Below, piece after piece: positions 6,610 to 53,929 of a stretch of 64,000 bases of DNA. The notes beneath the pieces are model-generated. The model searched no databases. It was not told where the DNA came from and saw only the letters and a list, made by a program, of their open reading frames with translations. Source of the DNA: Phycisphaerae bacterium (GTDB lineage Bacteria; Planctomycetota; Phycisphaerae; Phycisphaerales; Phycisphaeraceae); NCBI GenBank assembly GCA_030425705.1, contig JAUHZU010000004.1, forward strand, positions 62,001 through 126,000, read 5' to 3'. Position numbers and translations under genes: made by a program. Numbering within the stretch: position 1 is the first letter of the stretch; the number at the start of each line of letters is the position of its first letter.

Positions 6610-6904
6610 GCCCCGCCCTCACGGGGGCCGGGTGGGCGCCTAGGATGACCAGGAGCCCGCCACACCACCCAGACACCCCCCGCCGCCGCGGCCAACGCCG
6701 CGGCGGCGGATTCAGGACACGCCCCCTCGGGGGTGTGACAGGAGAAGCCCCGGGGCGACCCGGGGGGCCGATCGGCCGAGCGATCAGGGATCGACACGCT
6801 CACTGGCCTTGCCGCCTCGGTGTCACGGAAGACACGCGAGCGGCGTTGTGCCCGCGCCGCGGCGCGGCCGACGGTGCCCACGGAGAGAAGACCCAGGCGA
6901 GGCG
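6610..6904 (+). other. Structured intercistronic spacer in the exopolysaccharide locus
   Basis: No gene is seen. Besides the strong hairpin at 6680-6709 there is a second one at about 6717-6740 (CACGCCCCC pairing with GGGGGTGTG, one G-U) and further GC palindromes such as GCCCCGGGGC. The spacer could lower or condition expression of the exosortase and downstream genes relative to the export protein. Confidence 0.45.
6680..6709 (+). terminator. Perfect 13-bp hairpin after the wza-like gene
   Basis: Arms 6680-6692 and 6697-6709 are perfectly complementary (CCGCCGCCGCGGC) with a CAAC loop. There is no T tract, so it may be an attenuator, RNA-stability element or factor-dependent terminator rather than a classical terminator. 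Confidence 0.55.
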
Positions 6905-9043
6905 ATGACCACCACCCCAGCGACCAACCTGAGCCCACCGCGCCGCGATGCGCCGTTCCTGGGAGTCTCCGGGCGGGTCTGGGTCGTCGTGCTGGGCCTG
7001 CTGTTTGTGCTGCTCTTCCAGCACTTCATCCGCCGGATGGGCCTGGTCGGCATGACCAACGGCGACTGGTCGCACATCCTCGTCGTGCCCTTCATCTCGA
7101 TCTACTACATCTTCATCAACCGCGAACGCATCCTCGCCCAGCCGCGGCGGGTCTGCCTCTGGGGCCTGCCCATCCTGATCGCGGGGATCTTCCTGTTCAT
7201 GATGGGCAGCACCTTCCGGCCGCTGCGCAACGACATGCTCCAGGGCTACAGCATGATCATCGCCCTGTTCGGGCTGCTGCTGCTGCTGCTGGGCCCGCGC
7301 ACGGTGATGGCGCTGCTGTTCCCGGTCGTCTTCCTGGGCTTCGGCGTCCGGGTCAGCCAGGCCTTCTGGTCCATCATCGCCGGCAAGCTGCAGTTCATCG
7401 CCGCACGCGGCGCGGTCGTCATGATCAACCTGTTCAGCGGGCTGACCGACATGAACGCCACGGTCCGCGGCTCGACCATCGACCTGGACTACGTCTACCA
7501 GGGCAAGGCCGTCATGACCCCGCTCAACGTCGCCGAGGCCTGCTCGGGCATGCGGATGCTGATGGCCTTCCTCGCGTTGGGTGTCGCGCTGGCGTTCCTG
7601 TTCCCCCGCCGGTGGTGGCAGCGGGTCGCGATGATCGCGCTGACCCTGCCGATCGCGATCTTCGTCAACATGCTCCGCGTAGCGATCCTCGCGTCGATGT
7701 ACCTGATCGACCCGTCCTACGCCCAGGGGCAGTTCCACATCTTCATCGGCATGCTGATGCTCATCCCCGCCGCGGGCCTGCTCATGCTCGTGGGCTGGTG
7801 CCTCGAGAAAGCGGTCGTCGGCGAGCACAAGCCACCGACCCCGACGCCCATCCCGCACAAGCACGACACGCTGCGGTTCAATGCCGACTGGCCGACGGTC
7901 CGCACCGGCGCGGCGCTGGGCGTGCTGCTGATGCTCTGTACCGGGCTGGCGTACCTGTTCTTCCTGAACTACGAGACCGACGGGCTGATCTCCGACACCG
8001 TGCTCGCGGGCTGGCCCCGCTCGGCCGACTTCGCGGGCATCGCGGTGACCACGCTCGGCGTCCTCGCGGCCGGCGTCCTGTTCTTCAAGCTTGTGGGCAA
8101 GCCCGGCAGCGACCGGCGGTGGTTCATGTCCCTGGGCGTGGCCGCGGGCGTGCTGCTGACCGCCGGGTCCGGGCTCTACGCCGTGACCAAGGCGACCGGC
8201 GTGGTCTTTATCAAAGAGGCCCTGCCCCTGCGGTACAGCCTGACCGCCGAGTTCCCTAAGCAGGCGGGGAACTGGGTGATGCTAGGCCAGGACGGTCGGC
8301 TGCCCACGGACATCGAGAAGGAACTCGGCGCGACCGAGTACTTCACCCGCCACTACCTCGACACCACCGGCTATGAGGCCGACGTCGAGACGACCGACGA
8401 CGGCGAGACGATCGTCCGGCTGTACCCCGACGACGGCTCGGACAGCCGGCAGGTCCGGGCCCGGCTCTCGTCGCCCGACCACGGCGTGACGCTGGTCGAC
8501 GGCGCGCTCCCCGGCGAGATGGTGTCGGTGCACATCGCGTACTACACCGCGATCGTCGACTCGGTGCCCCACGTCCCGGACAAGTGCTGGATCGTGGCCG
8601 GCGGGACGATGGCGTTCCGTGACACGCGCTCGATCGCGCTGGAGGGCGAGACGTACCGCAGCGACCCGGAGAGCAACGGCCTGCTGGCCGACAGCACGCT
8701 CGGCGGCGAGGTGCGCATCCCCGACGACGAGGTCGAGATGGTGGTCTTCGGCGCAGACGACGCGAACGGCCGACGCAACACCGCGGCCTACTTCTTCATC
8801 GCCAACGGCGACATGATGGCGAGCAACCACGCCGTCCGATTCAGCTTCAGCCTGCGCGACCGCTACGCCTACTACTGCAAGGTGGAGATGCGGTTCCCCG
8901 GCATCGAAAACCCCGAAGAACTGCAGGCCCGCGCCGAAACGTTCCTGCGCGACATGCTGCCCGAGATCATGGCGTGCCTGCCGGACTGGACCGAGGTCCA
9001 GTCGGGCCGGTACCCCAGCGGATCGACACCTACACAGCCCTGA
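6905..9043 (+). CDS. Exosortase with fused C-terminal EpsI-like domain
   Basis: A membrane cysteine transpeptidase/protease that cleaves PEP-CTERM proteins after export and is thought to transfer them to a surface acceptor. The start is ATG at 6905, giving 712 residues; earlier in-frame starts fall inside the structured spacer. Residues 20-300 carry about eight membrane segments and the family triad: Cys213 in EACSGMRM, Arg258 in NMLRVA and His278 in GQFHIFIG. Residues about 330-430 add more membrane segments. From about 440 the soluble part resembles EpsI (FPKQAGNW, and HVPDKC with Cys561 in the position of the EpsI HxPxxC motif). In proteobacteria EpsI is often a separate protein. Substrates in this window are the four PEP-CTERM genes at 21812, 22652, 49656 and 51314. 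The TPR gene follows after 44 bases. Confidence 0.92.
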   Translation: MTTTPATNLSPPRRDAPFLGVSGRVWVVVLGLLFVLLFQHFIRRMGLVGMTNGDWSHILVVPFISIYYIFINRERILAQPRRVCLWGLPILIAGIFLFMMGSTFRPLRNDMLQGYSMIIALFGLLLLLLGPRTVMALLFPVVFLGFGVRVSQAFWSIIAGKLQFIAARGAVVMINLFSGLTDMNATVRGSTIDLDYVYQGKAVMTPLNVAEACSGMRMLMAFLALGVALAFLFPRRWWQRVAMIALTLPIAIFVNMLRVAILASMYLIDPSYAQGQFHIFIGMLMLIPAAGLLMLVGWCLEKAVVGEHKPPTPTPIPHKHDTLRFNADWPTVRTGAALGVLLMLCTGLAYLFFLNYETDGLISDTVLAGWPRSADFAGIAVTTLGVLAAGVLFFKLVGKPGSDRRWFMSLGVAAGVLLTAGSGLYAVTKATGVVFIKEALPLRYSLTAEFPKQAGNWVMLGQDGRLPTDIEKELGATEYFTRHYLDTTGYEADVETTDDGETIVRLYPDDGSDSRQVRARLSSPDHGVTLVDGALPGEMVSVHIAYYTAIVDSVPHVPDKCWIVAGGTMAFRDTRSIALEGETYRSDPESNGLLADSTLGGEVRIPDDEVEMVVFGADDANGRRNTAAYFFIANGDMMASNHAVRFSFSLRDRYAYYCKVEMRFPGIENPEELQARAETFLRDMLPEIMACLPDWTEVQSGRYPSGSTPTQP

Positions 9044-46126: not shown

Positions 46127-46161
46127 GGGTTTCAGGTCTGGGGGCTCGGGGCGGGTGTCTA
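46127..46161. repeat. Degenerate heptanucleotide array upstream of the PadR promoter
   Basis: Seven-base units GGGTTTC, AGGTCTG, GGGGCTC, GGGGCGG, GTGTCTA on the plus strand; less regular than the arrays at 44968 and 60395. Confidence 0.5.
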
Positions 46162-46173
46162 CACGGTAGAAGC

Positions 46174-46192
46174 CCACGTTCCTGGAACGTGG
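46174..46192. repeat. Perfect palindrome after the GGDEF-EAL gene
   Basis: CCACGTTCC, one base, GGAACGTGG. It lies 34 bases beyond the stop at 46226 and may act as transcription end or belong to the same small family as 45146-45168. Confidence 0.5.
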
Positions 46193-46225
46193 ACCCGCGG
46201 CCAGGGCATGGGGCGCGGAGGGCGC

Positions 46226-48121
46226 TCAGCCCGCGCAGGGCATGGCCTGCCGGTTGTCGAGGTAGGCGGCGATGATGTCGGCCTCGGCGGGCTTGTGGAA
46301 GAAGTAGCCCTGGCCGTAGTGGCAGTCGAGCGCCTGGAGCTGGGCGACCATGTCCGCGGTCTCGATGCCCTCGGCGGTGACCTTGAAGCCCAGGTTGCCG
46401 GCCAACGACGCGATGGCGTTGATGACGGCGGCGTAGTCGCGTCGGCCTTCGAGGTTGGCGATGAAGGCGCGGTCGATCTTCAACACGTCCAGCGGGAACT
46501 CGTGCAGGCACGCCAGCGAGGAGTACCCCGTGCCGAAGTCGTCCATCGCCAGGCGGAACCCGCGGTCGCGGATGGCGCGGACGGCGTCGCCTGCGCCGGT
46601 GACGATGGTGCTCTCGGTAATCTCCAGCGACACGGCCGAGGGCGGCAGCGACAGCCGGCGGGCCGTGTCGAGGAAGCGGTCGGCCAGGTCGGGGTCGGTG
46701 AGCTGGCGCTGGGAGACGTTGATGTTCATCGTCAGCCCGGGGTCGAACCGCTCGCGCCAGGTGATGAGCTGCCTGCAGGCCTGCTCGAAGACCCAGTGGC
46801 CCAGGTCGTGGATCACGCCGATCTCCTCGGCCACGGGGATGAACTGGTCCGGCGGGACCAGGCCGCGCTCGGGGTGGCGCCAGCGGACGAGCGCCTCGAA
46901 CCCGCTGACCCGGCCGTCGTCGAGCCGGACGATCGGCTGGTAGAACACGCGGAACTCGTGGCGTTCGAGCGCCAGGCGGAGGTCGTGGTCGAGCGCGGCG
47001 CGTTGGTGGACGGCCTCGGACATGTGCTCGTCGAAGAACAGCCGGCCGCCGCGGCCGCGGGCCTTGGCCTCGTACATGGCGATGTCGGCGTCGCGGACGA
47101 GCCCGTCGGGGTCGGCCGAGGCGTCGTCGGTCCAGGCGATGCCGATGCTCGCGGAGCTGTGGGCCGGCTTGCCGTTGAGCTTGTACGCCGGGGCCAGCGC
47201 GTCCTGCAGGCGCTTCGCCACGCGGTCGGCGTCTTCGATGCAGGGGATGTCGCCGAGCACGACGACGAATTCGTCCCCGCCGATCCGCCCCGCGAGCCCG
47301 CTGCCCCGGCCGGGCTGGGCCGCGTCGAGCGTCCCGCGCAGCCGGCCGGCGATCTGGACCAGCAGGTCGTCGCCCGCGTCGTGGCCCATCGTGTCGTTCA
47401 CCAGCTTGAAGCGGTCGAAGTCCAGGAACAGCACCGCGACCCCGCGTGACGCGCCGTCGGCGACGGCGTCCAGCTCCTGCCGGATCCGCCCCACCGCCGT
47501 CGAGCGGTTGGCCAGCCCGGTCAGCGTGTCCTCCTCCGCGAGCCGGCGGTACCGGTTGACCGAGAACGTCGCGCGGAAGCCCTTCAGGTTTGCCGCAAAC
47601 TTCCACGCCCAGATGTTCAGCATCAGCAGGCAGACCGCCACCGCGCGGTAGCCCGGCCAGAAGAAGATCACCACCGACGCGACGTACCCGCACACCGCGC
47701 ACCACAGGAAGATCTGCGCCAGGTCCATCAGCTTGCCGTTGCGGTCCCGGCGTTTCTCGGCGAAGTAGGACCGGCACCAAAAGATATAGATCCGCAGGTA
47801 CGCGACGATCACGCCCAGGTTCAGCACGATCAGCGCGATGATCCAGGGCCAGTCCGGCTGCCCGGCCTGGTTCATCAGGCAGTGGCTGCGCGGCATGTAG
47901 TTGCCGTAGTTTGAGAAAAAGTCGCCCTGCGGCTGGGCGGCCGCAGGCTGCCCCGCGATGCCGTGCGACGCGTGCGCGCCCGAGGGCACCGCGTGCCCGG
48001 TAATGAACTGGACCGCGAGGATCACCACCACGACGACGCCCAGCGACGCGAGCGCAGACACCCAGACGGCATCGCCCGCGCTGCGCTTCTCGAAACCCCT
48101 GGTTCGCCGACGGTCAGACAT
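46226..48121 (-). CDS. Membrane-bound GGDEF-EAL cyclic-di-GMP protein
   Basis: 631 residues from ATG at 48121. The N-terminus has TM1 (about 20-42), an extracytoplasmic His/Pro/Ala-rich loop (about 43-92) and three further TM segments (about 92-112, 130-155 and 158-175). The GGDEF domain has an intact RIGGDEF at about 278 and a DTLTGLANRS start. The EAL domain has an intact FEALVRWRHP at about 408, with NINVSQRQL, EITES, MDDFGTGYSS and VTAEGIET. Both synthesis and hydrolysis of c-di-GMP are possible. It may control biofilm or polysaccharide production, but nothing in the sequence ties it directly to the 5164-18664 locus. Confidence 0.95.
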   Translation of the reverse strand: MSDRRRTRGFEKRSAGDAVWVSALASLGVVVVVILAVQFITGHAVPSGAHASHGIAGQPAAAQPQGDFFSNYGNYMPRSHCLMNQAGQPDWPWIIALIVLNLGVIVAYLRIYIFWCRSYFAEKRRDRNGKLMDLAQIFLWCAVCGYVASVVIFFWPGYRAVAVCLLMLNIWAWKFAANLKGFRATFSVNRYRRLAEEDTLTGLANRSTAVGRIRQELDAVADGASRGVAVLFLDFDRFKLVNDTMGHDAGDDLLVQIAGRLRGTLDAAQPGRGSGLAGRIGGDEFVVVLGDIPCIEDADRVAKRLQDALAPAYKLNGKPAHSSASIGIAWTDDASADPDGLVRDADIAMYEAKARGRGGRLFFDEHMSEAVHQRAALDHDLRLALERHEFRVFYQPIVRLDDGRVSGFEALVRWRHPERGLVPPDQFIPVAEEIGVIHDLGHWVFEQACRQLITWRERFDPGLTMNINVSQRQLTDPDLADRFLDTARRLSLPPSAVSLEITESTIVTGAGDAVRAIRDRGFRLAMDDFGTGYSSLACLHEFPLDVLKIDRAFIANLEGRRDYAAVINAIASLAGNLGFKVTAEGIETADMVAQLQALDCHYGQGYFFHKPAEADIIAAYLDNRQAMPCAG

Positions 48122-48270
48122 GGCTGCCCCTGAAGATGGACAGTGTCACCTTCGGCAGATTCCACGGCCGCAATCATCCCCCCTGCCGCCGCCGGACGTA
48201 AATCAGGTCAACACCGGTCTACCAGCCCGCCGATAAGCGGTACCCGACCGGTGGCTCGCGGGGCGAGCTG

Positions 48271-49089
48271 TTAGTGCTTTTGACCTACAAACAGCGTCCA
48301 CGCCGCGTTGTCTCCGTCCGCGTCCAGCTCGGGCGGCTCGATGGGCTGGGGGGTCAGCCCGGCGTCGGCCAGCATCGCCAGCCAGTGCTCGGCCGCGAAC
48401 AGCCCGCAGGTGTGGCGATCCTCGATGACCTCGACGCGGCGCGTTCGGCCGTCGCGGACCAGGTACAGCAGGATCATCTCGAAGACCGAGTCGTCCGGGT
48501 CGGCGTCGTGCACGAAGGTGAAGTAGGTCAGCTCGTCCTGCCCGTCAGCGCTCCCGCCGCCCTCGTTGCGGGGGTCGCCGATACCGGGGATCGTTGTGCC
48601 GTCGTCCGCGACATCGCCGTCCACAAACGTCTCGCGGATGTAGGTCGGCGCGACGAGCGCGACCCCGCCGGGCCGGAGGTGCTCGGCCGCGGTGCGCAGG
48701 GTCGCGAGCACGTCCGCCTCGTCGAGCATGTAGTCGATCGCGTCGTGGATCAGCACCGCGTCGAACACCTCGCCCAGCCGGGCCGTGCGCATATCGCCCT
48801 GTACACAGCGGACGGTCGGGTTGAGCGTGCGGCAGTTGGCGAGCATCGGATCGGAGAGGTCGACGGCGGTGCAGTCGTAACGCTCGGTCAGGTGGTAGAG
48901 CGTGTGCCCGCCTCCGGCACCGAGTTCGAGGATGCGCCAGCGCCGGTCGGCCGGGGGAGCGCCCAGGTGCTCGGCCAGCAGCGCGTCGATGACGCCGGCC
49001 TCGGGCGCGTAGTGCTCGGGTGGGCTGAGGTACGGCCACAGCCGGGCCAGGTCGTCGTACAAGCGCGGGAGGGGAATCGCGTCAGCCAT
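48271..49089 (-). CDS. SAM-dependent methyltransferase (class I)
   Basis: 272 residues from ATG at 49089 (MADAIPLPRLYDDLARLWPYLSPP). The Rossmann motif I is ILELGAGGGHTLYHL (about 48-62). CTAVDLSDPML and a motif VRCVQGDMRTARL follow, then post-I FDAVLIHDAIDYM. The second half (about 150-272) is a beta-rich extension with conserved-looking HTCGLFAAEHW. The acceptor is unknown. The -10 box TACGAT lies 6 bases upstream of the ATG. It is downstream of rplU but separated by a terminator. Confidence 0.85.
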   Translation of the reverse strand: MADAIPLPRLYDDLARLWPYLSPPEHYAPEAGVIDALLAEHLGAPPADRRWRILELGAGGGHTLYHLTERYDCTAVDLSDPMLANCRTLNPTVRCVQGDMRTARLGEVFDAVLIHDAIDYMLDEADVLATLRTAAEHLRPGGVALVAPTYIRETFVDGDVADDGTTIPGIGDPRNEGGGSADGQDELTYFTFVHDADPDDSVFEMILLYLVRDGRTRRVEVIEDRHTCGLFAAEHWLAMLADAGLTPQPIEPPELDADGDNAAWTLFVGQKH

Positions 49090-49602: not shown

Positions 49603-49655
49603 TAGCGGGCCGGCGTAGCTCCCGGGCCTCAAGACCCGGCCGGAACGCCTCGGGA

Positions 49656-51038
49656 TCAGGCCCGACGCCGACGCGCCAGCAACACCCCCGCCAGCCCGAG
49701 CAGCGCGGCCGTGCCCGGCTCGGGGATCAGCCCGCCCGGGGGGACACCCGCCCCCCAGTGGGCCTGGACCAGCGCCAGGTCGGAGTCCCCCACCACCCCA
49801 TCGCCGTCCAGGTCGCCGCGCGGGCGGTCAAACGGGGTCACGGCCTCACCCCAGTGGGCCAGGAGGATATCCAGGTCCGCGACATCGACCCGCCCATCGC
49901 CGTTCGCGTCGCCGGGCTCGAACAGGGCCGTCGCGTGGAACCGCACGGTGCTCAGCGAGAAGCCGATGAAGTCGTACTCGTTCTCGAGGTCGAAGATGGA
50001 CAGCACGTGGTCGCGCGGGGTAAAGGCGTCGAGCATCACCGTGCCGTCTTCCTCGCTGAGTGTCGCGGTAAAACCCCCGATCGACGACTCGAGCTGGAAC
50101 TCGCGCTGCATCCCGATCAGCTCCACGAAGATGTTGACCCCTTCTGTCACCAGCCCGTGCTCGAAGTCGCGGCCGGGATCGGGCCCGCCCGGCGTGTCGG
50201 CCCAGAAGAAGTCGCTCAGTTCCATCGAGATCGAGGCGTCCGGGTCCAGCGCGTCCAGCTCGAAAGTGTTGGGATCGAACGAGAAGAAATCGAAGCGGAA
50301 GTCTTCGTTCCGCAGCTCATCGACGCCCTCGCCGTTCTCGCGCTCGATGATCATCGACGGGCCGGACAAGGTCGACGAACCGGACAAGGCCACGACGTCG
50401 CCGTTGGGGTTCGACAACGGGGTGGGTGCATCGTTCGCGGTCAGTGTTTCGCTGCCGTAGTGCACGGTGATATCGACGCGCTGCAGCGCACCCGGCCCAC
50501 CGTTCACGGCGCTGTCAAGGGTGTAGAGGTTACGGCGGACGATGTCCTGCGAGTAGCCGTAGTGGTGCTCGAGCACCATCCCGTTGCCGTCGAGATACGC
50601 GAACAACGGCACCGCGGGCGAGCCGCCGGCTTCCGCACCGTAGGACGTGTATTCGCTAGTCGTGACCGGCCCCGTCAGCACGTCGTAGGGGTTGCCGAGC
50701 GCATCGGCCCAGAGGGTCGCGTCGGCGGTGTCGGCCTGGGCGAACGTGGTGTCCTCCATGAGGAGCTGGATGTAGCTGACGTAGATGCCCTCGCGCGCGA
50801 GGTCGGTGGTGAAGGGGACGATGTCCGCGGTCGCTAACTGGCACGGCGTACACCACATCGAGCAGAAGTCGAGGATGGTGTATCGGCCGGTCTCCAGGTA
50901 GTCGCCGTAGAGCGTCCGCGCCAGGCCGTCCTGATTCACAGACGAGAAGTCCGGGGCGGTGTCACCGATCGCGTAGCCCGTCTGGGCTGCGGCCGCGAAG
51001 CCGGGGAGACAGGCGAGCATCCACGCGGTGCAGCGCAC
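49656..51038 (-). CDS. Secreted thioredoxin-fold protein with dockerin repeats and PEP-CTERM tail
   Basis: About 460 residues if started at GTG 51038; the start is uncertain, and ATG 51020 or 51146 is possible. A signal-peptide-like region ends AAAAQ. A TlpA/redoxin-like domain (about 20-180) contains IGDTAPDFSSVNQDG and the active site SMWCTPCQLA. A beta-rich middle (about 190-370) follows, then two dockerin type I-like calcium repeats, GDANGDGRVDVADLDILLAHWG and GDLDGDGVVGDSDLALVQAHWG, and finally the sorting tail IPEPGT, a hydrophobic helix and ARRRRA. A redox-active protein fixed to the surface by the exosortase is inferred. It is divergent from the next PEP-CTERM gene. Confidence 0.88.
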   Translation of the reverse strand: MRCTAWMLACLPGFAAAAQTGYAIGDTAPDFSSVNQDGLARTLYGDYLETGRYTILDFCSMWCTPCQLATADIVPFTTDLAREGIYVSYIQLLMEDTTFAQADTADATLWADALGNPYDVLTGPVTTSEYTSYGAEAGGSPAVPLFAYLDGNGMVLEHHYGYSQDIVRRNLYTLDSAVNGGPGALQRVDITVHYGSETLTANDAPTPLSNPNGDVVALSGSSTLSGPSMIIERENGEGVDELRNEDFRFDFFSFDPNTFELDALDPDASISMELSDFFWADTPGGPDPGRDFEHGLVTEGVNIFVELIGMQREFQLESSIGGFTATLSEEDGTVMLDAFTPRDHVLSIFDLENEYDFIGFSLSTVRFHATALFEPGDANGDGRVDVADLDILLAHWGEAVTPFDRPRGDLDGDGVVGDSDLALVQAHWGAGVPPGGLIPEPGTAALLGLAGVLLARRRRA

Positions 51039-51313
51039 CTTCAAGCGATTCTGGGTCTGGATTGCCACGGCTTGCTCCGCACCCCGATTCAAGAAAGGCC
51101 CGGCCAATGCCAGTGTAACCCCAACGGTGCGGCGACCCAAACACATTCCCACCGCCTTCCGAGATGCGGCCCAACCAAACATTTCTCACACCACCCGACC
51201 GAATCCTAACCAAGGCGTCGCGGTTTACTCGCGATCGGCCGTCAACATGCCCGGCGATTGCTGGGCGGTGCGCCCGCAACACACCCCCTATCCCCTTGTT
51301 GAGGAGTTTAGAA

Positions 51314-52048
51314 ATGACGATCCAGAAAACGGCATCCGGGCTGCTGGCCGGCCTCGCGGTCGCGGGCTCGGCTAGCGCGGCGCTTACGACCGGCGACATC
51401 GCCTTTATCGGTTTCAGTGCCGACGGCGAAGACGGGTTCTCCATCGTCGCGCTGACCGATATCGCCGCGGGCGAAGAGATCTTCTTCCGAGATGATGAAT
51501 GGGACGGGACCGGCTTTGGCACGGGCGAAAGCGAATTCCTTTGGACCACGACCGCGCTGACCGCCGGCTCGGTCGTGACCTTCATCACCGACGCCTCCGA
51601 CCCGGTCAGCGCCTCGGTCGGGACCATCTCCGACCCCGGCGCGTTCGGCGACAACATGGGCATCTCCTCGGGCGGCGAAACGATCTTTGCCTTCCAGGGC
51701 ACAAGCAACACCCCCGCGACGTTCCTCGCCGCGATCACCAGCGCCAACGCGATCGAGGACGACATCTCCGGTACCGGGCTGACCGTGGGGACGACCGCTG
51801 TGGTCCTGGGCGGTGAAATCGATGGGTCCCAGTACGCCGGCCCACGCAACACCGAGACCGCTTTCAGCGATTACCTCGCCCTCATCGGCGACACCAACAA
51901 CTGGACCGCCCCGGTCGATGGCAGCGGCGACCAGTCCGGCGAGCTCCTGCCGTTTGATACGACGTCCTTCTCCGTCGTCCCCGAGCCCGGCTCGCTCGCG
52001 CTGCTCGCGCTCGGCGGCCTGGCCGTGCTGCGCCGCCGGCGCGGCTGA
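51314..52048 (+). CDS. PEP-CTERM surface protein 3 (lamin-tail-like N-domain)
   Basis: 244 residues from ATG at 51314 with GAGGAG at 51301-51306; the longer frame upstream is not supported. The signal peptide cleaves near ASA (about residue 23). The body opens with LTTGDIAFIGFSADGEDGFSIVALTDI, an opening seen in many secreted bacterial proteins with a lamin-tail-like fold. It is acidic and glycine-rich and ends with VPEPGS, a hydrophobic stretch and LRRRRG. A likely substrate of the exosortase at 6905. The pseudopilin gene follows after 116 bases on the same strand. Confidence 0.92.
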   Translation: MTIQKTASGLLAGLAVAGSASAALTTGDIAFIGFSADGEDGFSIVALTDIAAGEEIFFRDDEWDGTGFGTGESEFLWTTTALTAGSVVTFITDASDPVSASVGTISDPGAFGDNMGISSGGETIFAFQGTSNTPATFLAAITSANAIEDDISGTGLTVGTTAVVLGGEIDGSQYAGPRNTETAFSDYLALIGDTNNWTAPVDGSGDQSGELLPFDTTSFSVVPEPGSLALLALGGLAVLRRRRG

Positions 52049-52164
52049 GCCCGCCTGTCGCACCGACTGGTTTCTTCCCGCCGGCCCTGCCGACCCGGGG
52101 CCGGCTGCTTCGCTCGACAACCTGCTGCCGCACCGCTTCCACCATCGCCTCTCCGGAGTACGCC

Positions 52165-52986
52165 ATGCGTCACCCACGCGGATTCACCCTGATCGAGCTG
52201 CTGGTCGTCATCTCCATCATCGCGCTGCTCATCGGCATCCTGCTCCCGGCGCTCGGCTCGGCCCGTAGGAGCGCACAGCAGACCAAGTCCCTGGCCAACA
52301 CCCGCTCCTGGGGCCAGGGCACGATGATGTTCGCCACCGACACGCGCCAGTGGCTGCCCTGGGAGGGCGATAAGCAGCCGGACAACGGCACCTGGAACGC
52401 CCGGCAGTGGTGGGCCAACGCCGTGCCCGAGTACCTGGGCCAGCGCACCTACCTCGACATGGCCGACGCCGGCGACATCCCCCTGCCCGGCGAAGACAGC
52501 TTCTTTGTCGACCCCGGCGCGGACCTCCCCGGTGCCGGCCAACCGGGGGGCGCGGGCCCATACACCAGCGCGGGCCGGCCGTACTTCTTCTGCTACGTCT
52601 ACAACTCCAAGCTCGACGCGGACGCGGGATTTGTCCCCCGGGCCCAGGGCACGCCCTCCGGCGAGAAGCGCATGACGCTCGACCTCATCCCGCAGGCGTC
52701 GTCCACCGTGCTCATGCTCGAGAAACGCACCGTCCGCGAGGAGGTGCCCGACGTGCCGTCGCTCAACGGCATCCGCAACGTGCCGCTCAACGCCGCCTTC
52801 GGCGACTGGGAAGAGTTTGCGGGTCGACACAACCGGGGTGGGCATGTCCTCTTCGGCGACGGGCACGGCTCACACATCACCCTCGAATACGCCAACGAAG
52901 TCGTGCCCGAGGACCACGTCCAGCCCACCGGGGCCGGCCGGAACAAGCCCGACCTGATCTGGAACCCGCTGGGTCGTGGCACCTGA
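52165..52986 (+). CDS. Prepilin-type (pseudopilin) protein with H-X9-DG tail
   Basis: 273 residues from ATG at 52165. Leader MRHPRG, then [20 protein letters not shown], the prepilin peptidase site and pilin helix, almost identical to the protein at 20871. The body has the aromatic-rich WANAVPEYLGQRT region. The C-terminal signature RHNRGGHVLFGDG is an exact H-X9-DG. It probably belongs to the pseudopilin set of a type II-like secretion or planctomycete fibre system. As at 20871-22489, it directly follows a PEP-CTERM gene. Confidence 0.9.
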   Translation: MRHPRGFTLIELLVVISIIALLIGILLPALGSARRSAQQTKSLANTRSWGQGTMMFATDTRQWLPWEGDKQPDNGTWNARQWWANAVPEYLGQRTYLDMADAGDIPLPGEDSFFVDPGADLPGAGQPGGAGPYTSAGRPYFFCYVYNSKLDADAGFVPRAQGTPSGEKRMTLDLIPQASSTVLMLEKRTVREEVPDVPSLNGIRNVPLNAAFGDWEEFAGRHNRGGHVLFGDGHGSHITLEYANEVVPEDHVQPTGAGRNKPDLIWNPLGRGT

Positions 52987-53002
52987 AGCGGACCGCCGGA
53001 AC

Positions 53003-53929
53003 CTATCTGAGCCGGTCCAGGATCAGCACGCGGTCCATGTTCTTGTAACGCAGACTCGCGTCGCTCATACCGGCTACCGCGCGGCGGAGCGCATCACGCA
53101 CCCCGGCGTCCAGCGTGTCGAAGGCGTAGAGGTAGGTGCGGATCAGGAACAGCGCGGCGCCGTGCTGTGGGAACCCCTGGATCACCTGGCGCTCGACGCG
53201 GAGCAGCGGCTCGCCGGGCGTGTGGCCGGCTAACGGCGTCGGCGCATTCGCCGAGGTGTCGCGCAGCGGGTGGTGGTTCAGCGCGGCATCCGTCGTCACG
53301 GTCCAGGCGAAGCGCACCGCGCCGCGGGTGGCGTGGACCATCAGCTTGGCGATCGCGTCCTGCTTCGCGTTGAGCGGCTCGATGTGCGGGACCGGGCGGT
53401 GCACCGCGTCGAACGGCCGACCGATCTTCTCCTCCGGCGGCCAGCCGCTTGGCATCGATACGTGCAGGGAGGCGACACTGTTCCGACCGTATTCATCGAG
53501 CGTCAGCACCGCGAAGTCCTCCTGCACCTGCACCGCCAGCGCATCGAGCGGCGCATCCTCTATGCTCGGCCGGAGCTTCTGCCCCGTCAGCGCACAATCA
53601 ACAGCCCCCCCGTCGGCAACGGCCGTGCCCGGGCCTGCCACCGAAAAATGCTGCGGGTACTCCAAGACCAACCGGTCGGCCATCCACAGCGCGATCGCAC
53701 GTTCGGTCTCGGCAGGCAGCCCGTCACGCAGGATGTGTCGGCCCGGCCACCGGGCGGCCTCGCGCTTCGCGGCATGGTACGCCTCGAAGGTGTTGTCGAC
53801 CTGAAACACCCGGCCGTCGAACGCGCCGTTGCCGTGGTCACGGCCCAGCGGCTCGATGCCCGCCTTGACGTCGTACACGCCGTGCAGGAACGGGAAGTAG
53901 CGCGGCGGGGGCATGGAACAAAGCGCCAC
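53003..53929 (-). CDS. DUF3445 family protein (haem-dependent oxidative N-demethylase-like)
   Basis: 308 residues from GTG at 53929; ATG 53914 (MPPPRYFPFLHG) is an equally good start. The family hallmark near the C-terminus is clear: LRVERQVIQGFPQHGAALFLIRTYL, and the N-terminal region includes VDNTFEAYHAAKREA. DUF3445 covers haem- or flavin-linked oxidative demethylases acting on methylamines, but the exact reaction is not established for this one. It follows the UDP-sugar pyrophosphorylase gene after 3 bases on the same strand, which suggests an operon without a clear metabolic link. Confidence 0.75.
   Translation of the reverse strand: MALCSMPPPRYFPFLHGVYDVKAGIEPLGRDHGNGAFDGRVFQVDNTFEAYHAAKREAARWPGRHILRDGLPAETERAIALWMADRLVLEYPQHFSVAGPGTAVADGGAVDCALTGQKLRPSIEDAPLDALAVQVQEDFAVLTLDEYGRNSVASLHVSMPSGWPPEEKIGRPFDAVHRPVPHIEPLNAKQDAIAKLMVHATRGAVRFAWTVTTDAALNHHPLRDTSANAPTPLAGHTPGEPLLRVERQVIQGFPQHGAALFLIRTYLYAFDTLDAGVRDALRRAVAGMSDASLRYKNMDRVLILDRLR

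Follow-up and report, generated by a model that had tools for sequence, protein, structure and literature searches.

The window analysed here, a stretch of 64,000 nucleotides from a Phycisphaerae genome, carries on its minus strand a gene (49656–51068) whose open frame runs uninterrupted from about position 51068 to the stop at 49656 and joins, in this order, a signal-like N-terminus, a thioredoxin-type domain, a middle region about 187 residues long, a pair of dockerin loops and, at the end, a PEP-CTERM tail. By eye we placed the start at the GTG at 51068, which gives a protein of 470 amino acids; the longest frame that opens with ATG is 508 amino acids. The first-pass annotation had begun the gene at 51038, a GTG that lies within the signal region. 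Because a GGAG (51075–51078), which resembles a ribosome-binding site, stands six bases upstream of the GTG at 51068, the latter fits better and is the likelier start. The translation from this GTG opens with what appears by eye to be a signal peptide (50985–51068, minus strand), consisting of a basic n-region, a hydrophobic core and AAAA/Q. No sigma-70-like promoter was found between 49550 and 53050.

The segment from 50535 to 50975 (minus strand) is assigned to a TlpA/ResA-like thioredoxin-type domain on the basis of Pfam, NCBIfam and a profile of relatives. Pfam AhpC-TSA matches the protein with E = 4e-5 and 24.0 bits, below the cut-off of 26, and reaches 27.2 bits, over the cut-off, in a six-frame search of the genome, while the NCBIfam DsbE model gives E = 1.4e-4 and 21.5 bits, far under its cut-off of 123.15. 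The closest solved structures by sequence are thioredoxin-family and DsbE chains (E about 0.01–0.05). A profile built from 92 relatives scores the domain at 55.8 bits, against 8.0 bits for the best of 1000 shuffles, a test that is partly circular in that the relatives had been retrieved with this domain as query. The profile alignment covers most of the domain and puts WCTPC and the cis-proline at the expected positions: WCTPC aligns with the WCgPC of the relatives, so that the CxxC opens the first helix within a W-C-x-P-C context, and VPLFAYLD, with the cis-proline equivalent at 50607–50609 (minus strand), aligns with iPttvvid. AlphaFold, run on single sequences of two of the domains without relatives, returned pLDDT values of about 32 (31.7 for the redox domain), too low to be informative on the fold. 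The domain-long alignment, cis-proline included, supports the earlier view that the CxxC region is of thioredoxin type, and a redox role for it is likely as far as can be judged from sequence.

The active site reads C-S-M-W-C-T-P-C (50841–50864, minus strand) and contains three cysteines, C69, C73 and C76, spaced C-x3-C-x2-C; beyond the signal peptide the protein has no others. At the position of C69, four residues before the CxxC, the 92 relatives have Trp in 86 cases, Phe in four, Ser in one and Arg in one, and never Cys. Judged by this alignment, the trio of cysteines is what most sets the protein apart. In other respects the domain resembles proteins of the TlpA/ResA/DsbE type (Pfam AhpC-TSA/Redoxin), with which it shares WCxPC, the cis-proline, a signal-like start and a long stretch between the CxxC helix and the cis-Pro strand. 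Unlike this protein with its third cysteine at position -4, the relatives that we fetched carry the domain alone or in other proteins, none of them with a dockerin/PEP-CTERM tail. The region that follows (49920–50480, minus strand; about 187 residues) belongs to no known family, as neither Pfam nor NCBIfam matched it, and no relative of it was found.

The C-terminal part of the protein is generic. The dockerin type I pair (49764–49916, minus strand) is matched by Pfam Dockerin_1 in two stretches with 26.7 bits, over the cut-off of 22.9, and contains two F-hand loops at 49875–49910 and 49779–49814, DANGDGRVDVAD and DLDGDGVVGDSD, both of which have Asp/Asn ligands at positions 1, 3, 5 and 12; at the DNA level the pair is an 85-nucleotide direct repeat with 72% identity. 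The PEP-CTERM sorting tail (49662–49727, minus strand) consists of IPEPG, a hydrophobic helix and RRRR, and scores over the cut-off with TIGR02595 (21.3 bits against 16) and below it with PF07589 (18.8 against 20.7). When the whole protein was searched against its own genome, 52 matches were obtained, 51 of them outside this gene, and at 38 of these 51 other places a single match spanned both the dockerin and the PEP-CTERM parts, that is, query residue 376 or lower through 454 or higher (counted by eye, excluding two weaker rows that nearly qualified, one of which has an internal stop). Where the alignment covers both ends of the tail, at 26 other places, identity is 45–61%. A PEP-like C-terminus is present in 42 of the 51 distinct matching ORFs, this protein included, and Dockerin_1 alone has 34 matches in the genome at E ≤ 0.01. 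Pfam analysis of 34 tail-bearing ORFs identified trypsins, GDSL lipases, a sulfatase, SpoIID, an M14 peptidase, lysyl oxidase and others, and among the ORFs of this genome that share the tail there was no convincing match to the redox domain or to the middle region. The dockerin pair and PEP-CTERM are thus a stock C-terminal cassette of this genome, and the redox domain is one of its passengers. Among the tail-bearing proteins, two trypsin-like neighbours (L126 and L127) end in an identical kind of dockerin-PEP-CTERM tail and are apparently a tandem duplicate.

Since dozens of unrelated exported proteins carry this tail, we believe that it is a common address label and not a special docking device. 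The first-pass annotation had read the two calcium repeats as a docking pair; that these repeats exist is borne out by the Dockerin_1 score and the intact loops, but their use in docking is not. Cohesin (PF00963), which it had proposed to look for in the genome, gave no match there at E ≤ 1, and in 51 genomes of the family only two had matches at E ≤ 0.01, none over the Pfam cut-off. The Pfam Cohesin model works, as it detects a control set, though divergent cohesins may escape it. With no cohesin found in the genome and none over the cut-off in the family, docking would be left without a partner. The exosortase tail, on the other hand, fits exosortase sorting, as the annotation had supposed: TIGR02595 is over its cut-off, and three loci of the genome exceed the Pfam cut-off for exosortase, one of them in this window. 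The gene concerned (6809–9043, plus strand; PF09721 149.5 bits; TIGR04178 66.7 bits, cut-off 23), in which the PF09721 match lies at 69001–69801 of contig 9, or 7001–7801 of the window, is a candidate sorter of the PEP-CTERM tail. A polysaccharide export gene, this exosortase and a PrsT-like TPR gene stand in a row between 5164 and 13818, an exopolysaccharide/PEP-CTERM sorting locus in which the two genes beside the exosortase score below their equivalog cut-offs.

With regard to redox partners, DsbD_TM was found at one locus, in a 669-residue open frame with a C-terminal thioredoxin-type CxxC domain, and VKOR at three; therefore reducing and oxidising systems both exist at the membrane. The proteins that would be sorted together with this one are poor in cysteine: 25 of the 42 PEP-CTERM ORFs of the genome have none after the first 60 residues, and a total of 37 Cys occurs in 24,920 residues, a count that leaves out those first 60 residues and takes in the present protein, a few PEP-CTERM ORFs that lack dockerin and some short fragments. 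For this reason a busy trade in disulfides among the co-sorted proteins is disfavoured. Hence, of the suggestion that this is a disulfide-handling or redox protein fixed in the matrix, the redox domain stands as a sequence-based assignment, while the handling of disulfides is doubtful.

The presence of all three parts in one frame, as first proposed, is upheld by the family profiles and the open frame, and the fusion is real and unusual; we found no second example. A search of the class with the redox and middle parts of the protein gave hits at E ≤ 0.001 in 87 of 397 genomes, and among the matches listed in the class and family searches none extends past residue 213, all of them lying in the thioredoxin region. 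Of the 96 class rows listed, 86 were examined (30 as loci and 56 fetched; 10 were left aside) and four were added from another search, whose other thioredoxin rows were covered in part. The 96 loci read, which included a few dockerin loci, contained 95 ORFs with the redox domain including this one, and the other 94 had neither a dockerin nor a PEP-CTERM tail. This search, which the first-pass annotation had proposed, went into depth within the Planctomycetota, with ORFs read from stop to stop and some cut by locus ends, and revealed no second redoxin-dockerin-PEP-CTERM protein among those 94 thioredoxin-type ORFs. The 50 other genomes of the family yielded no orthologue, their best match having 25.5 bits. 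Plasmids gave one weak match, to a Hymenobacter TlpA protein, and viral contigs none. One weak match in a collection of genomes from 84,980 species searched with short peptide patterns (locus L011) was treated as spurious, as the locus holds a peptidase-like ORF on the opposite strand and no redoxin ORF of at least 150 amino acids.

The gene lies in a segment (49604–53009) that BLAST of the window against locus L211 showed to be absent from the collinear site of a sister species, G746, where the flanks at 49603 and 53010 map to 9390 and 9431, 41 bases apart. This 3.4-kb segment holds the redox gene, a divergent PEP-CTERM gene (51314–52048, plus strand; Pfam PEP-CTERM 25.7 bits, over the cut-off and its sole family, with no dockerin match) and a gene for a pseudopilin-type protein (52165–52986, plus strand; N_methyl motif and weak DUF1559). 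The base composition of the segment is like that of its surroundings and does not mark it as foreign. In two other members of the genus (G748 and G749) the right flank is not matched next to the gene for ribosomal protein L21. Since the family yielded no orthologue, a gain of the redox gene here is favoured over its loss in G746. The DNA that encodes the N-terminus of the pseudopilin (52179–52265) is about 75–93% identical to dozens of places in this genome and those of its genus mates, which suggests a very large pseudopilin family.

We consider it reasonably probable that a secreted thiol-disulfide domain of the TlpA/ResA type has been captured by the resident stock surface-sorting tail. In the model that we propose, the Sec pathway would export the protein, and the PEP-CTERM helix would anchor it at the inner membrane until it is cleaved by an exosortase, which would hand it over to the cell surface or the exopolysaccharide layer. 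The pair of dockerin loops, loaded with calcium, would serve as a rigid generic module beside the sorting signal and not as a cohesin plug. WCTPC may exchange disulfides either in the tethered state, with DsbD as a possible reductant, or after arrival at the surface, for which a donor is not known. Several observations weigh against this model: none of the 50 other family genomes offers an orthologue in which the CxxC could be seen to be conserved, the cysteine-poor PEP-CTERM proteins leave few disulfide substrates at the surface, the extra Cys in place of Trp could disturb the thioredoxin chemistry, and Pfam could miss a divergent cohesin.

Some of the same observations would suit a domain that is no longer a redox enzyme and has taken a structural or binding role in a matrix protein, its cysteines forming a structural disulfide or a metal site. 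The change from Trp to Cys at position -4, seen in none of 92 relatives, points in this direction, as do the divergence of the domain, whose best match at family level has 25.5 bits, and surroundings that are poor in cysteine and offer no known extracellular electron donor. However, the catalytic signature of CxPC and cis-Pro is intact, and we regard the loss of redox function as unlikely. At the other extreme, C-x3-C-x2-C may be a working three-thiol device that DsbD charges at the inner membrane and that, once released by exosortase, delivers one reducing dose per molecule to the exopolysaccharide layer; this would couple sorting to extracellular redox delivery, and we consider it very improbable.

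A docking model, in which the dockerin pair would attach the redox domain to a surface complex that bears cohesin, comparable to the planctosome proposed for freshwater Planctomycetes, we judge to be quite improbable: both calcium loops are intact, and cohesin-dockerin proteins have been proposed in a planctomycete family (PMC6461901), but similar tails occur on unrelated proteins, and the cohesin searches yielded nothing at E ≤ 1 in this genome, while across 51 family genomes two had a match at E ≤ 0.01 and none exceeded the cut-off. An artefact of prediction or assembly, in which unrelated pieces form a chimeric frame, might explain why no full-length relative was found and why the segment is missing from G746. 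We find it scarcely credible, given one unbroken frame with GGAG, a signal-like start and a proper tail, a base composition that matches the neighbourhood, and a genome that is 98.7% complete with 0.55% contamination and has the gene on a 370-kb contig. Returning to the capture of a TlpA/ResA-type domain by the sorting tail, its meaning is that a redox domain has been recruited to a standard surface-sorting module of this lineage. It also argues for taking the dockerin repeats of such genomes as a component of a sorting tail and not as proof of cellulosome-like docking. To our knowledge, little is known of the redox chemistry of exopolysaccharide layers, and if the thiols of this protein are active it would offer an entry point to it.

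PEP-CTERM proteins are described as diverse, linked to exopolysaccharide and for the most part encoded by single-gene operons (Haft et al., 2006; PMC1569441), and one of them, the cyanobacterial ZepA, is reported to occur in the exoproteome and to serve zinc supply (PMC10957091). Like the substrates of the PEP-CTERM/exosortase system, the present protein has a signal-like N-terminus, a PEP motif, a hydrophobic helix and a basic end, in a genome that encodes exosortase; unlike them it has a thioredoxin-type passenger, of which we found no example in the literature searched. With the dockerin type I proteins of cellulosomes and of the planctosome, a cohesin-dockerin complex proposed for another planctomycete family (PMC6461901), it shares two F-hand calcium loops and a Dockerin_1 score over the cut-off; it differs in that no cohesin was found here and in that the dockerin pair recurs alongside PEP-CTERM. 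For cohesin and dockerin modules outside cellulosomes, a review states that the function is not known (PMC5244752). The literature searched contained no report of dockerin with PEP-CTERM in Planctomycetes, of PEP-CTERM with redoxin or thioredoxin-like domains, or of dockerin, thioredoxin and PEP-CTERM together, in agreement with the initial impression that this architecture had not been described; dockerin and exosortase appear together in an archaeal review.

The window contains a second segment that is absent from G746 at a collinear site (46156–48275). It includes a gene of GGDEF-EAL type (46226–48121; domains assigned by eye), and in G746 about 107 bases separate its flanks, 46155 and 48276.
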